Shown in pieces: positions 1-4,438 of a DNA stretch of 64,000 nt. The position numbers were made by a program, and so were the translations under genes. The stretch covers positions 1-64,000 of the forward strand of contig JASKKK010000005.1 of the NCBI GenBank assembly GCA_030154185.1, given 5' to 3'. The notes beneath the pieces were generated by a model. The model worked only from the letters and a program-made list of their open reading frames with translations. It did no database searches and had not been told where the DNA came from. This DNA comes from Desulfuromonadales bacterium. GTDB lineage: Bacteria; Desulfobacterota; Desulfuromonadia; Desulfuromonadales; Syntrophotaleaceae. Position 1 is the first letter of the stretch, and each line of letters starts with the position of its first letter.

Positions 1-1369
1 GAGAGGACAGTTGCCGATGCAGATCGAGCAGAGCCGTGAAATCGCCTGTATCGGTAAAGTGCTGAATGAGGTTGGAAAGATGTTTTTTAAGAGAGATCTG
101 CTCACACCTGTCTTCCGTATTTTGCAGCAAATGGCCAAGGACGTTGGAGAGCCGCTTTTCCATTGTCAGATCATGGATGCTGTTTTTCAGCGTGGTGACG
201 ACTTCGGCCGGTAGCACCGGTGGCGGCTGGCGGTTTGGAATCTGTTGCAGAACCGATCGGTAGTCTTCTGGTACATAGTGATCGGCATGGTGCTTGGCAA
301 ATACCAGCTTGAAATGTTCTGGTGTTTGTTTCGACCTCCCTGCCGACAGACTGTCAGTAGTTTTCGGGGCGAAGTTGTCGCCGGCTGAAGAACCATGGCA
401 TGACAGCTGATTGAGCATCTGCAGGATAAAGGGGGGGATGACACCTTTTTCCGCATTGATGTCTTGCAGCGCCTCCAGAATTAGCTGGTTGGAAAAGGAG
501 CTGAGAATTGCCCCGGCATGTTTGTCGTGGGTGGCCAGGGCGGAAACGGTGCTCGATAGAAACTGCTGACGTAGAGGGGGGTGCAGGTTGCCGATAAACA
601 CCCGGAATTTGTCCAAAACTTCGCTGTGTACCTGTTGGGAGAGATTTTCCCGATCAAGATCACGTAAAAAGGAGGCAATGGCTTTGTCGTAGTCGCTGTA
701 TTCTTTTGTCCTGTCCGGGGAGCGGCTCTGGCTCAAATTCTCGGCCAATTCTTGCGGAGTCAGCCATGTGCCCGGATAAGCCGGAGCCGTTTTTGAGCTG
801 TCGACCGCCTTTAGCATGGCGTCGACAAAACCCTCCCACGGAGATGTCATGCCATCCTGCGTGGGGTTGGAAGGTTCGGAAGACTCCGACCACGGTTGCG
901 TTTGAAACCGACCGTAATGGAGAGGTGTGACGGTAAGGTGTTTGATATCAGCGGCGACGGTTGTTTCAACGATGCCGCCTCGTGCAAGGATATCTTCCGG
1001 TTTACAGGCCAGCAGGCGGCAGAAACTGCATAGTTCCGGTACCGTCAGTCCGTAATGGATGGTCAGAGCGACCAGGCCATGGGAAAACAGGGCACGGGAA
1101 AATTCGCGGTAGACCGGGTTTTTGGGATCCAAAAGAGCCGAACCGAGCATGAGCCGGTCACGGGCAACGCCTATGGTGACCTGCCGGGAGGATGTTTTGA
1201 GGTGTTCCACAACCTTGATGGTTCTTTGGGCGGAGGTGAGTATGATCTGGTGCCCGGGAGGGTAAGTGCTCACCTGCCGTCGTACGATATTCATCTGATA
1301 GATGAGATTGGACAGAAGTCTGGTGTCCAAGCAGGCCTCAGCATCTTGGTTGTCGGGATGGTGAGACAA
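1..1369 (-). CDS. Hypothetical protein, 3' end cut by the window edge
   Basis: Reading the minus strand by hand gives one uninterrupted frame from about 1409 to base 1, roughly 456 residues without a stop; the end lies outside the window. Recognisable stretches are NLIYQMNIVRRQVSTYPPGH near the N-terminus and a mostly polar helical body. I do not recognise the family. The start is uncertain. I chose the TTG at 1369 because AAGGGG lies about 7 bases before it; a GTG at 1409 and an ATG at 1294 are in the same frame, and a stop lies just upstream of the GTG. It follows the sigma-54 activator in the same direction after about 155 bases, so co-transcription is possible. Plus-strand frames here are shadows of this gene. 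Confidence 0.75.
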   Translation of the reverse strand, partial: MSHHPDNQDAEACLDTRLLSNLIYQMNIVRRQVSTYPPGHQIILTSAQRTIKVVEHLKTSSRQVTIGVARDRLMLGSALLDPKNPVYREFSRALFSHGLVALTIHYGLTVPELCSFCRLLACKPEDILARGGIVETTVAADIKHLTVTPLHYGRFQTQPWSESSEPSNPTQDGMTSPWEGFVDAMLKAVDSSKTAPAYPGTWLTPQELAENLSQSRSPDRTKEYSDYDKAIASFLRDLDRENLSQQVHSEVLDKFRVFIGNLHPPLRQQFLSSTVSALATHDKHAGAILSSFSNQLILEALQDINAEKGVIPPFILQMLNQLSCHGSSAGDNFAPKTTDSLSAGRSKQTPEHFKLVFAKHHADHYVPEDYRSVLQQIPNRQPPPVLPAEVVTTLKNSIHDLTMEKRLSNVLGHLLQNTEDRCEQISLKKHLSNLIQHFTDTGDFTALLDLHRQLSS

Positions 1370-1524
1370 TCGGTTTCCCCCTTGGCAGGATGTCGAAAAA
1401 GGTTAACACGACTCTTTTTCAACGAAGCAACCCGAGAATGCGTTTTCTCCTTGCTTGCAAAATCAAGGGATTGGAGAGCAACTCCGGATTCTGGTCGCCC
1501 ACCCGCACAATGGGTTCACGCTTT

Positions 1525-2907
1525 TTAAAGGTCTAATCGCTTGATCTTTTCGACCAGGGTGGTGCGCTTGATATTCAGCAGATCGGCTGCGCGTGCCTTG
1601 ACGCCGCCGCTTAACTCCATGGCGGATTTGATCAGACAGCGTTCGATGCCTGCTATGACCTGGGGCATGTCGAGACCCGATTCGGTCAGACGGGGACAGG
1701 ATATCTGAGGCTCTTCGTCCTCACAGGAACTGCCGCTGATATTGGCCGGCAGGTCGCTTTTACCTATTGCCGCCCCGTCTGTTAATGTGACGGTGCGTTC
1801 AATGACATTCTCCAGTTCGCGCACATTGCCGGGCCAATGGTAGTTTTCCAGAGACGTCATGGCTCCAGGGGTTATGGATACGATAGGGCGTTTCATCTCG
1901 CTGCAGGTTTTTTGCAGGAAGTGACGTGCAAGCAGGGCGATGTCCTCGCGTCTTTCCCGCAGAGGCGGCAGGGCGATGGGGATGACATTCAGACGATAAT
2001 AGAGATCGGCACGAAAGTGTCCCTGCTCAACTTCTTCCTCGAGGTTGCAGTTGGTGGCGGAGATGACCCTCACGTCAAGCTTGATTTTTTTTGAGGAGCC
2101 GACTTTTTCCACTTCCTGCTCCTGCAGCACCCGAAGAAGCTTCATTTGCAGATGCAGGGGCATGGTTCCGATTTCATCGAGAAAGATCGTGCCCTGATGA
2201 GCTTGCTGGAATTTGCCCGCTTTATCGGAAACGGCTCCTGTGAAGGCTCCTCTGACATGGCCGAATAGTTCGCTTTCCAGCAGTTCGGCGGGAATCGCTC
2301 CGCAGTTTATGGCGACAAAAGGTTTCTCCCGGCGATGACCGTTGTAGTGGATGGCCTTGGCGACAAGTTCCTTGCCGGTACCCGATTCCCCAAGGATGAG
2401 AATGGTCGAATCCGTATTGAGGATCTTTTCCATGCGGGAAAAAACGTATTGCATGGGCAGGCTGTTTCCGATGATGTTGTCGAAACGATACTTGCCCCGC
2501 AATTGTTGGCGCAGATACAGGTTTTCCGCCACCAGCTGACTTTTTTCCAGAGCCTTGGCGATGATTACCTGAAGCTTTTCGAAATGCAAAGGCTTGGTAA
2601 TATAATCGAAGGCCCCTTCCTTCATGGCTTCGACAGCAGATTCGGCAGAGCCTTTGCCGGTGATGAGGATAACGTTTGTAAAGGGCCATTGCTCTTTTAC
2701 GCGTTTCAGGATCTCGATCCCGCTGACTCCCGGCAGGAAAAGGTCGGTAAGTATGACTTCAAAGGGGGTTTTGCTCAGGATTTCCAGGGCTTTTTCGCCG
2801 GTTTCGGCGGTTGTGACCTGATACCCTGCGTTGCCGAGCAGAAGAGCGATGGCCTCGCGATTTGCAGCTTCATCTTCAATAACCAGAATTTGTGATATGT
2901 TTTTCAT
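1525..2907 (-). CDS. NtrC-family sigma-54-dependent response regulator
   Basis: Cytoplasmic transcription activator of about 460 residues. The receiver domain spans residues 5-120, with acidic pair ED at 11-12, phospho-acceptor Asp55 (ILTDLF) and Lys105 (TKP). A central AAA+ domain has Walker A GESGTGKE, the sigma-54 contact loop GAFTGA and Walker B FLDEIG. The C-terminus is a Fis-type helix-turn-helix ([20 protein letters not shown]). I chose ATG 2907 because receiver domains begin a few residues before ILVIEDE; an in-frame ATG at 3015 would add 36 poorly conserved residues. No histidine kinase is adjacent, so the partner is unknown. It diverges from nfeD across a short region that holds a perfect dyad. 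Its sigma factor is encoded further along (rpoN). Confidence 0.95.
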
Positions 2908-2952
2908 AGTGTCGACTGCAGAAAAGGGTTGGCTTGTCATCCGATTGACGGT

Positions 2953-2970
2953 ATGGTAGAAAGCTACCAT
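2953..2970. promoter_or_regulatory. Perfect inverted repeat in divergent promoter region
   Basis: ATGGTAG and CTACCAT form exact 7-base arms around AAAG. The dyad lies between the divergently read response regulator and nfeD genes, where an operator for either would be expected. It could equally form an RNA hairpin. No binding protein can be assigned from sequence. Confidence 0.4.
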
Positions 2971-3034
2971 GCTCGGATGATCCTTGCAAGGCCGGGCGTT
3001 AAAAAATTGGCGCATCGTGGAGATCGTGGTTCAA

Positions 3035-4438
3035 ATGATTGACGCTTTATGCTCCTTAAAGATTTTTGCTCGCCGTTTCGGCGTGGTTTTTATGCTGGTG
3101 AGCCTGGCCATTTCGTTGGTCCTGCTTCGAATGGCGTTCAGCGCAGTGAATGAGACGCCACGCGTTGAAGCGGTACGTATCGCCGGGCCAATCAATCCGG
3201 TTGTAGCTGAATTTGTAACGGACCAGCTTGCTCGCGTCAACCTTGAAAATGCCGATGCCTTTCTCCTGGAACTCGATACGCCGGGCGGGTTGGACAATGC
3301 CATGCGGCAGATCATCAAGGGAATTCTCGGTTCGAATATCCCGGTCATTGTCTTTGTGTCGCCTGCCGGGGCGCGTGCCGCATCGGCGGGAGCGCTGATT
3401 ACCCTTTCCGCGGATTTCGCGGTCATGGCGCCGGGGACAAACATCGGTGCTGCGCATCCCGTTTCTATCGGCGGGGGGCAGAAGGATCCCGACGATGTCA
3501 TGATGAACAAGGTGGTGGAGGATGCCGCCGCCTATGCCCGCAGCCTTGCTGCGCGCAGGGGGCGCAATCCGTCCTGGGCAGAGAAGATGGTGCGGGAAAG
3601 TGTGTCTATCTCCGCCACCGAAGCTCTCCGTTACGGGATTGTCGATGTGGTCGCCGATAATCTTGACGATCTTTTCCAGAAACTTCATGGGCGCAATTAT
3701 CAGAGGGGTGATGTCGCCAGGAAGTTGTCCTGTAAGGGGGCGGTGGTGGCATGGGCCGCCATGGATTGGCGGCAGAAGATTCTGAATGCCGTCAGCGATC
3801 CGAATGTTGCCTACATGTTGCTCATGTTGGGGATACTCGGCGTGTTCTTTGAAATTTCTCAGCCCGGTGTCATACTGCCGGGCGCCATTGGCGGCATTTC
3901 TCTGTTGCTGGCTCTGTTTGCCTTCCAGGCTTTGCCGGTGAACTATGTCGGGATTCTGTTGATCCTGTTGGCGCTTGTGCTGTTCGTGCTGGAGGTCAAG
4001 GTGACGTCCTTCGGCATGCTTACGATTGGAGGCGTGGTTAGCATGACACTTGGCTCCCTGATGCTGTTTGAACACGCTGAACCGTTTTTCCGGGTTTCAA
4101 AGGCTCTGGTTGCCTGCAGCGTAATCGTGGTCAGCGGGCTTTGCCTTCTGGTGCTTTATTATGTGGTTCGGGCACAACGTCGACGTTTCGTGTCCGGCCG
4201 GGAAGGGATGGCCGGCTTGACCGGCGAGGCTCTTACAGAGGTCCATCAAGGCGGGCAGGTTTTCGTTCATGGCGAGTATTGGAGAGCGTTCTCGGTCGAA
4301 CCGATTGCCCGGGGTGAATCGATCGTGGTGGTGCGCATGGTTGACAACATGCGTCTGGAAGTCCGTCGCGCAAATTCCTTACCCCTGCAGGAAGCCGCGT
4401 ACCCAACGTCAGGGTCCGACAAGGAGGATGGCAAATGA
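3035..4438 (+). CDS. nfeD: NfeD-family membrane-bound serine protease (ClpP class)
   Basis: Long-form NfeD protein of about 467 residues. An N-terminal signal or anchor segment ([19 protein letters not shown]) precedes a ClpP/S49-like protease domain with LLELDTPGG and the serine motif [10 protein letters not shown]; a likely catalytic lysine sits in [14 protein letters not shown] cluster of four hydrophobic helices follows, then a C-terminal beta-rich NfeD/OB-fold domain. In this family the protease is known to cleave stomatin-type partners, and the next gene encodes one, overlapping by four bases (ATGA). Membrane quality control is the likely role. Start: ATG 3035 is the first in-frame ATG before the anchor; in-frame TTG and GTG codons lie upstream (2984, 3014). 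Confidence 0.93.

Follow-up and report, generated by a model that had tools for sequence, protein, structure and literature searches.

The minus-strand reading frame that runs off the left edge of our window (the whole stretch of DNA analysed, that is, the first 64,000 bases of contig C24 of a draft genome with 118 contigs, 2.92 Mb and 90% completeness) is virtually certain to be a real protein-coding gene. It encodes a HEAT-repeat protein of 736 residues, and a gene for an HD-GYP protein with the same kind of N-terminal domain follows directly downstream; these two genes probably form one functional unit. The features on which this description rests are as follows.

1..1369, minus strand: first 456 of the 736 codons of the HEAT-repeat gene (open frame, contig overlap, orthologues and pN/pS).
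1367..1369, minus strand: TTG start codon of the HEAT gene, the first start after the in-frame TAA.
1377..1383, minus strand: likely ribosome-binding site AAGGGGG, read from the sequence, seven bases ahead of the TTG.
974..1330, minus strand: YPxxHP-type N-terminal domain of the HEAT protein, about residues 14-132 (hhalign, and E 2.6e-39 with profile A5, which contains close relatives of the genome's own domain copies or those copies themselves).
1525..3015 (probable ATG at 2907), minus strand: NtrC-type sigma-54 response regulator, with Response_reg, Sigma54_activat and HTH_8 domains.
Contig C17 (L009 100-941), plus strand: remaining 280 codons and stop of the HEAT gene (joined translation).
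Contig C17 (L009 938-2086), plus strand: HD-GYP partner gene, 382 residues, with HD_5 and HD matches.
Contig C4 (L076 4827-6452 and 6457-7788): second HEAT/HD-GYP pair of the same genome, with a shorter form of the HEAT gene and the same layout.

An ORF scan of the window gives 467 codons open from 1402 to base 1, bounded upstream by an in-frame TAA at 1405-1403; 300 base shuffles of positions 1-1409 gave longest open frames of 120 codons on average and of 222 at most. The sequence-only reading had reported more than 450 codons here, which stands, and an upper limit at 1409, which lies a few bases too far and out of frame. Its guess of a TTG or GTG start agrees with the TTG at 1369, which in alignment falls on the ATG of the orthologue at locus L042, in a genome of the same genus. 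The first 99 bases of the window are the exact reverse complement of C17:1-99 in the same draft genome, with the identity extending no further, and we infer an overlap of the sort left by assemblers between neighbouring contigs. Once the two contigs are joined, the frame passes the contig edge without an early stop and ends at C17:941, 736 codons in all; the earlier description of a gene cut off by the left edge, and the leftward extension proposed to check it, have both held. The join is supported by three genomes of the same genus (L042-L044), in which the whole gene is uninterrupted and an unbroken stretch carries the genes in the order seen here: pyruvate carboxylase, SPFH protein, NfeD-like protein (the names of these three window genes being our own labels), sigma-54 regulator, HEAT gene, HD-GYP gene. 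Homologues were found where the earlier reading had looked to find them, in Pelobacter (DKEW01000086.1 and DIKU01000064.1).

With respect to selection, the codons of the HEAT gene are under purifying constraint. When the window part is compared with four orthologues, pN/pS comes to 0.41-0.49 (0.41-0.45 against L042-L044, at 52-55% identity, and 0.49 against a fourth and more distant one, at 49% identity); against L042 the regulator gives 0.07 and the HD-GYP gene 0.31, the HEAT gene being under looser selection than both. With six genes of this genome as reference, the codon log-odds of the joined gene is 0.05 in its own frame, 0.005 in the mirror frame of the opposite strand and -0.38 to -0.56 in the other four frames. 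Codon use alone is not decisive because the mirror frame scored almost as high, and this ambiguity is all that speaks for a non-coding or decayed frame that is open by chance. Such a reading is already refuted by the full-length orthologues, the purifying selection and the synteny, and we give it practically no chance. All three antisense frames are broken by stops, both in our sequence and in each of the four orthologues inspected.

The gene is widely distributed among related genomes. When its C-terminal 276 residues were used as the query, matches were obtained in 56 of 58 genomes, our own included, with no match to this query in the other two (G033 and G038). By our reading of the match list, which takes a best E of at most 2e-24 as the mark of the long HEAT form, that form is present in 34 of the 58, again with our own; 22 have weaker matches in shorter frames, mostly of 519-642 codons, and these are taken as a paralogue, the HEAT gene of the second pair. 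One genome of the same genus, G003, has the shorter form only. In 32 of the 33 relatives' loci the orthologous frame is 711-758 residues long. The remaining gene, in G009 (L049 221-2443), is interrupted by a stop, and in G022 (L055 4990-6150) it is the HD-GYP gene that reads as two pieces; either case may be decay or an assembly error.

The earlier reading had left the family unnamed, and searches of Pfam and NCBIfam with the part of the protein encoded in the window gave nothing at E up to 1, HEAT models included. Its C-terminal part, on C17, matches HEAT_2 with 36.4 bits (cut-off 27.7), and the same domain is found at E up to 0.1 in all 32 aligned orthologues (alignment A1, 32 of the 33 relatives' proteins, without the stop-split L049 and our own protein, which lies on two contigs). 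The protein thus has the tandem helical-pair repeats, with a profile above cut-off, by which HEAT-repeat proteins are recognised. The AlphaFold model of the L042 orthologue (733 residues, mean pLDDT 76.6, pTM 0.46) begins with an alpha/beta N-terminal domain, continues through a middle part that is helical and in places disordered, and from about residue 384 onwards forms a regular helical solenoid. In fold searches it came closest to alpha-Rep and to further solenoids of the HEAT or armadillo type, matches which, for the predicted model, show repeat architecture and say nothing on function. The likeness to proteins of the HEAT_2 and PBS-lyase type (PF13646, PF03130 and the alpha-Rep designs) is therefore one of the C-terminal solenoid, in our protein and its orthologues; unlike them, our protein adds the YPxxHP domain and the pairing with an HD-GYP protein, and has a window part without a HEAT match. 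Since its most hydrophobic stretch of 19 residues has a mean hydropathy of only 1.55 and lies inside the solenoid, no membrane segment is expected, and the 736-residue protein is probably cytoplasmic.

Most discussion of HD-GYP enzymes treats them as single proteins to which an input domain is fused. The HD-GYP gene considered here lies outside the window and overlaps the last 4 bases of the HEAT gene, and its product matches HD_5 with 60.7 bits (cut-off 27.2). The motifs H248 D249 and G310 Y311 P312 are present in 33 of 33 sequences, as are the metal ligands that match those of PmGH (H189, H221, D222, H250, H276, H277 and D305) and the matching K225, D308 and R314; D183 is kept in 32 of 33. 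Consequently the seven shared metal ligands and the catalytic Lys are found throughout, and the catalytic Asp in all sequences except one. The positions of PmGH I294 and K317 vary among the 33 proteins, and the position of PmGH E185 is Tyr in every one of them, which places the family outside the trinuclear E/D-T-G subfamily. According to the passages on residue roles and subfamilies in PMC4159591, the Y/F subfamily of HD-GYP proteins likely holds a binuclear centre, and it is by the rule given there that the Tyr assigns the partner to this predicted binuclear subfamily. With the binuclear-site residues conserved, the partner would be expected to be an active phosphodiesterase. Its substrate could be c-di-GMP or 3',3'-cGAMP, the latter being also used by Geobacter (as stated in a passage of PMC8835794). 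The genome itself has 34 GGDEF matches over cut-off.

The HD-GYP alignment (A2) holds 29 of the 33 sequences used for the residue counts, without L049, L055, L057 and L060. A structure search with the full-length HD-GYP model gave matches in the HD-GYP part only (residues 148-380 in the VIA listing), and the nearest known proteins are the c-di-GMP phosphodiesterases of the Y/F subfamily, together with the solved HD-GYP relatives PmGH (4mcw/4mdz), PA4781 (4r8z) and Bd1817 (3tm8). The partner shares with these enzymes the HD-GYP fold, the metal ligands, the catalytic Asp and Lys and the GYP motif. It differs from them in its N-terminal domain, for which Pfam has no matching input domain and which is present also in a separate HEAT protein, encoded just upstream.

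This common domain, of about 110 residues, we call the YPxxHP domain, a label of our own. Comparison by hhalign of residues 15-124 of the HEAT protein with residues 5-113 of the HD-GYP protein gave a probability of 98.5 (E 2e-15), compared with 0.3 for the HEAT N-terminal domain against the HD-GYP catalytic part, 1.0 for the HD-GYP N-terminal domain against the HEAT part, and at most 4.4 for 20 column-shuffled profiles. The models of both proteins predict the same order of elements in this domain (helix, helix, strand, strand, helix, strand, helix), and in a 26-row alignment the Tyr of the motif is invariant and the His is present in at least 90% of rows. A search of the domain sequence against solved structures yielded seven matches at E up to 5; the best, Octarellin V.1 (E 0.012), is an artificial protein and was rejected as a relative, the match being taken as chance.

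In our genome the domain profile finds four places: the HEAT gene, its HD-GYP partner and the two genes of the second pair. The HD-GYP protein of the second pair is longer at its C-terminus, and L075, L076, L077 and L079 have a related gene after this pair; in L076 that gene has no Pfam match at E 1e-8. A tree of 116 N-terminal domains contains a HEAT-side clade of 50 (support 0.87) and an HD-GYP-side clade of 60 (support 0.66), six domains falling outside both; one HEAT-protein domain and eight tandem copies lie on the HD-GYP side. Both pair types are present within each main clade, and the pairing therefore seems, with moderate support, to predate the duplication. Of 247 genomes spread over the phylum, 100 carry the domain at E up to 0.001. 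It is also found in large STAND-like (AAA_16) HEAT proteins at L117 (two proteins), L118 (3539-7327) and L119 (10-3774), where it stands twice in tandem ahead of the HEAT region; AAA_16 is over cut-off in L118 and L119 and just below it in the single L117 protein that was scanned. These differ from the pair in being single polypeptides, of 1188-1447 residues, and no HD-GYP gene lies within the 7.5-8.5 kb read around them, L117 being cut close to the gene end. Because the tandem N-terminal domains cluster together, they are not a fusion of the domains of the two partners.

The pairing itself is well conserved. An HD-GYP reading frame lies directly downstream of the long HEAT gene in 32 of 33 loci (L042-L074, from 31 related genomes), the exception being L067, where a contig edge cuts off the region downstream of the HEAT gene. 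The two genes overlap by 4 bases in 24 of these 32 loci, some of the others being unclear since the start of the longest frame was used. Across the phylum, a set of 20 loci (L117-L136) was hand-picked with odd cases included; 16 of them hold a HEAT gene of the two-gene kind, and an HD-GYP gene adjoins it in 15, which is not the rate of a random sample. The sixteenth, L125, is a HEAT gene with the N-terminal domain and no partner in the stretch read, and in one of the 15, L136, the HD-GYP protein gave no match to the domain. The other four loci are those of the STAND-like proteins (L117-L119) and L120, a lone HD-GYP protein with the domain, likewise without a partner in the stretch read. Among the 146 domain matches listed from other genomes, at least 86 have a partner match on the same strand 0.3-3 kb away, a count that includes the four tandem copies carried by two G191 proteins and lacks weak partners. 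The distances of the HEAT and HD-GYP proteins correlate at 0.95 (mirror-tree, L049 and L055 left out), a value that we do not count as evidence because adjacent genes share ancestry anyway. In L061 (1613-4435) and L062 (7752-10574) a related protein of 940 residues is encoded directly after the pair; that of L061 has GAF and sigma-54 activator domains.

Upstream of the HEAT gene there is little such constancy. The sequence-only reading had correctly seen a sigma-54 activator there in the same direction, the NtrC-type response regulator, and such a regulator is directly upstream in 6 of the 33 relatives' loci (L042-L044, L051, L056 and L058), all six loci belonging to one family. In the eight loci scanned outside this group the upstream genes are PrkA-like, phospholipase D-like, an aminotransferase, a histidine kinase, a hexapeptide transferase, APH-like, a DEAD helicase and, in the genus mate L068, a REC-GAF-GGDEF gene. 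Since the upstream genes differ, only the HEAT/HD-GYP pair itself is widely conserved, and a conserved upstream gene was rejected as a clue to function. No -24/-12-like sigma-54 site, with up to 3 mismatches, lies between 1370 and 1525, and the pattern occurs 101 times in the window against 102.8 expected from shuffles, that is, without enrichment. No minus-strand terminator was found between the regulator and the HEAT gene, which would make their co-transcription plausible. Rfam has no match within 1-3100 at E up to 1. The intergenic region does carry a repeat of about 90 bases (1414-1504), one of three copies found in the genome, without an Rfam match or unusual folding. The other two (C74:43520-43610, L010, and C89:41656-41743, L011, both in our genome, G000) are 75-76% identical to it and lie, as we read their surroundings, beside GGDEF/chemotaxis-like genes and between sigma-factor-like and flagellar genes; a 55-base piece of the repeat occurs in G007, among 15 genomes searched.

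The conserved pairing and the N-terminal domain common to both proteins suggest a single signalling unit made up of the two; the second pair of the same layout and the largely split lineages of the domain fit a unit that is inherited as such. The HEAT gene would be the first gene of this unit and the HD-GYP gene the second, their products forming a complex through their N-terminal domains. The solenoid could then be a scaffold or regulatory arm, which would hold the phosphodiesterase at a target or act on it as a switch and so confine the breakdown of c-di-GMP, or of a related cyclic dinucleotide, to one place. To judge from gene order, the pair may also be co-transcribed with, or controlled by, the upstream sigma-54 regulator. 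That the HEAT protein is a scaffold or regulator of its HD-GYP partner, bound through the N-terminal domains, is the reading we favour, as an even bet.

Another view would be that the shared domain is a common input or homodimerisation domain, used by each protein alone in ligand sensing, and that the two genes lie together as responders to one signal and not because their products bind each other. Its presence in the STAND-like proteins, and in two further proteins with no partner close by, speaks for such a view, and both models place the domain as a separate unit before a low-confidence linker; the fixed order in 32 of 33 loci, the short overlap and the mostly separate lineages of the domain nevertheless fit subunits of one complex better, and we think independent inputs rather unlikely. 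A further alternative makes the HEAT protein the effector, acting on a third partner such as the pilus machinery, with the HD-GYP protein mainly a subunit for cyclic-dinucleotide sensing or regulation. The distribution of the domain gives this some attraction: PilM is present in 96 of 100 domain-positive genomes and 111 of 147 negative ones (Fisher p 7e-6), FlhA in only 48 of 100 compared with 101 of 147, in a statistic that in both cases ignores kinship. That caveat itself weakens the alternative, as does the fact that neither our draft genome (90% complete) nor its genus mate G001 (78%) has a PilM match, a gap that may reflect incompleteness because the same-genus genomes G002-G005 each have one. 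Moreover, the catalytic residues of the HD-GYP protein are kept, and we consider an effector role of this kind quite improbable. A general flagellar role was rejected, the domain being under-represented in genomes with FlhA and showing no co-occurrence with flagellar genes of the sort expected of a flagellar regulator.

Our searches of open-licence PMC papers brought up no description of the HEAT/HD-GYP pair, and the HEAT-repeat passages of PMC7159879, PMC3071791, PMC3826837, PMC7824862 and PMC2879425 concern other proteins. Both components are of known kinds; it is their combination that did not turn up in those searches. Returning to the scaffold reading, one may tentatively, and with more doubt than confidence, extend it to the phylum: an unnamed signalling domain, YPxxHP, would build a conserved two-protein machine in which a HEAT solenoid and an HD-GYP phosphodiesterase are joined by matching N-terminal domains, a machine duplicated into two parallel pairs (as in our genome), with its domain reused in STAND-like proteins, and with a local effect on cyclic dinucleotides that may be exerted at type IV pili. 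Should HD-GYP proteins regularly be accompanied by a separate HEAT scaffold that bears the same domain, it would become possible to test local second-messenger control in Pelobacter-like bacteria, and many HEAT-repeat genes without a named function would gain a family and a likely partner.
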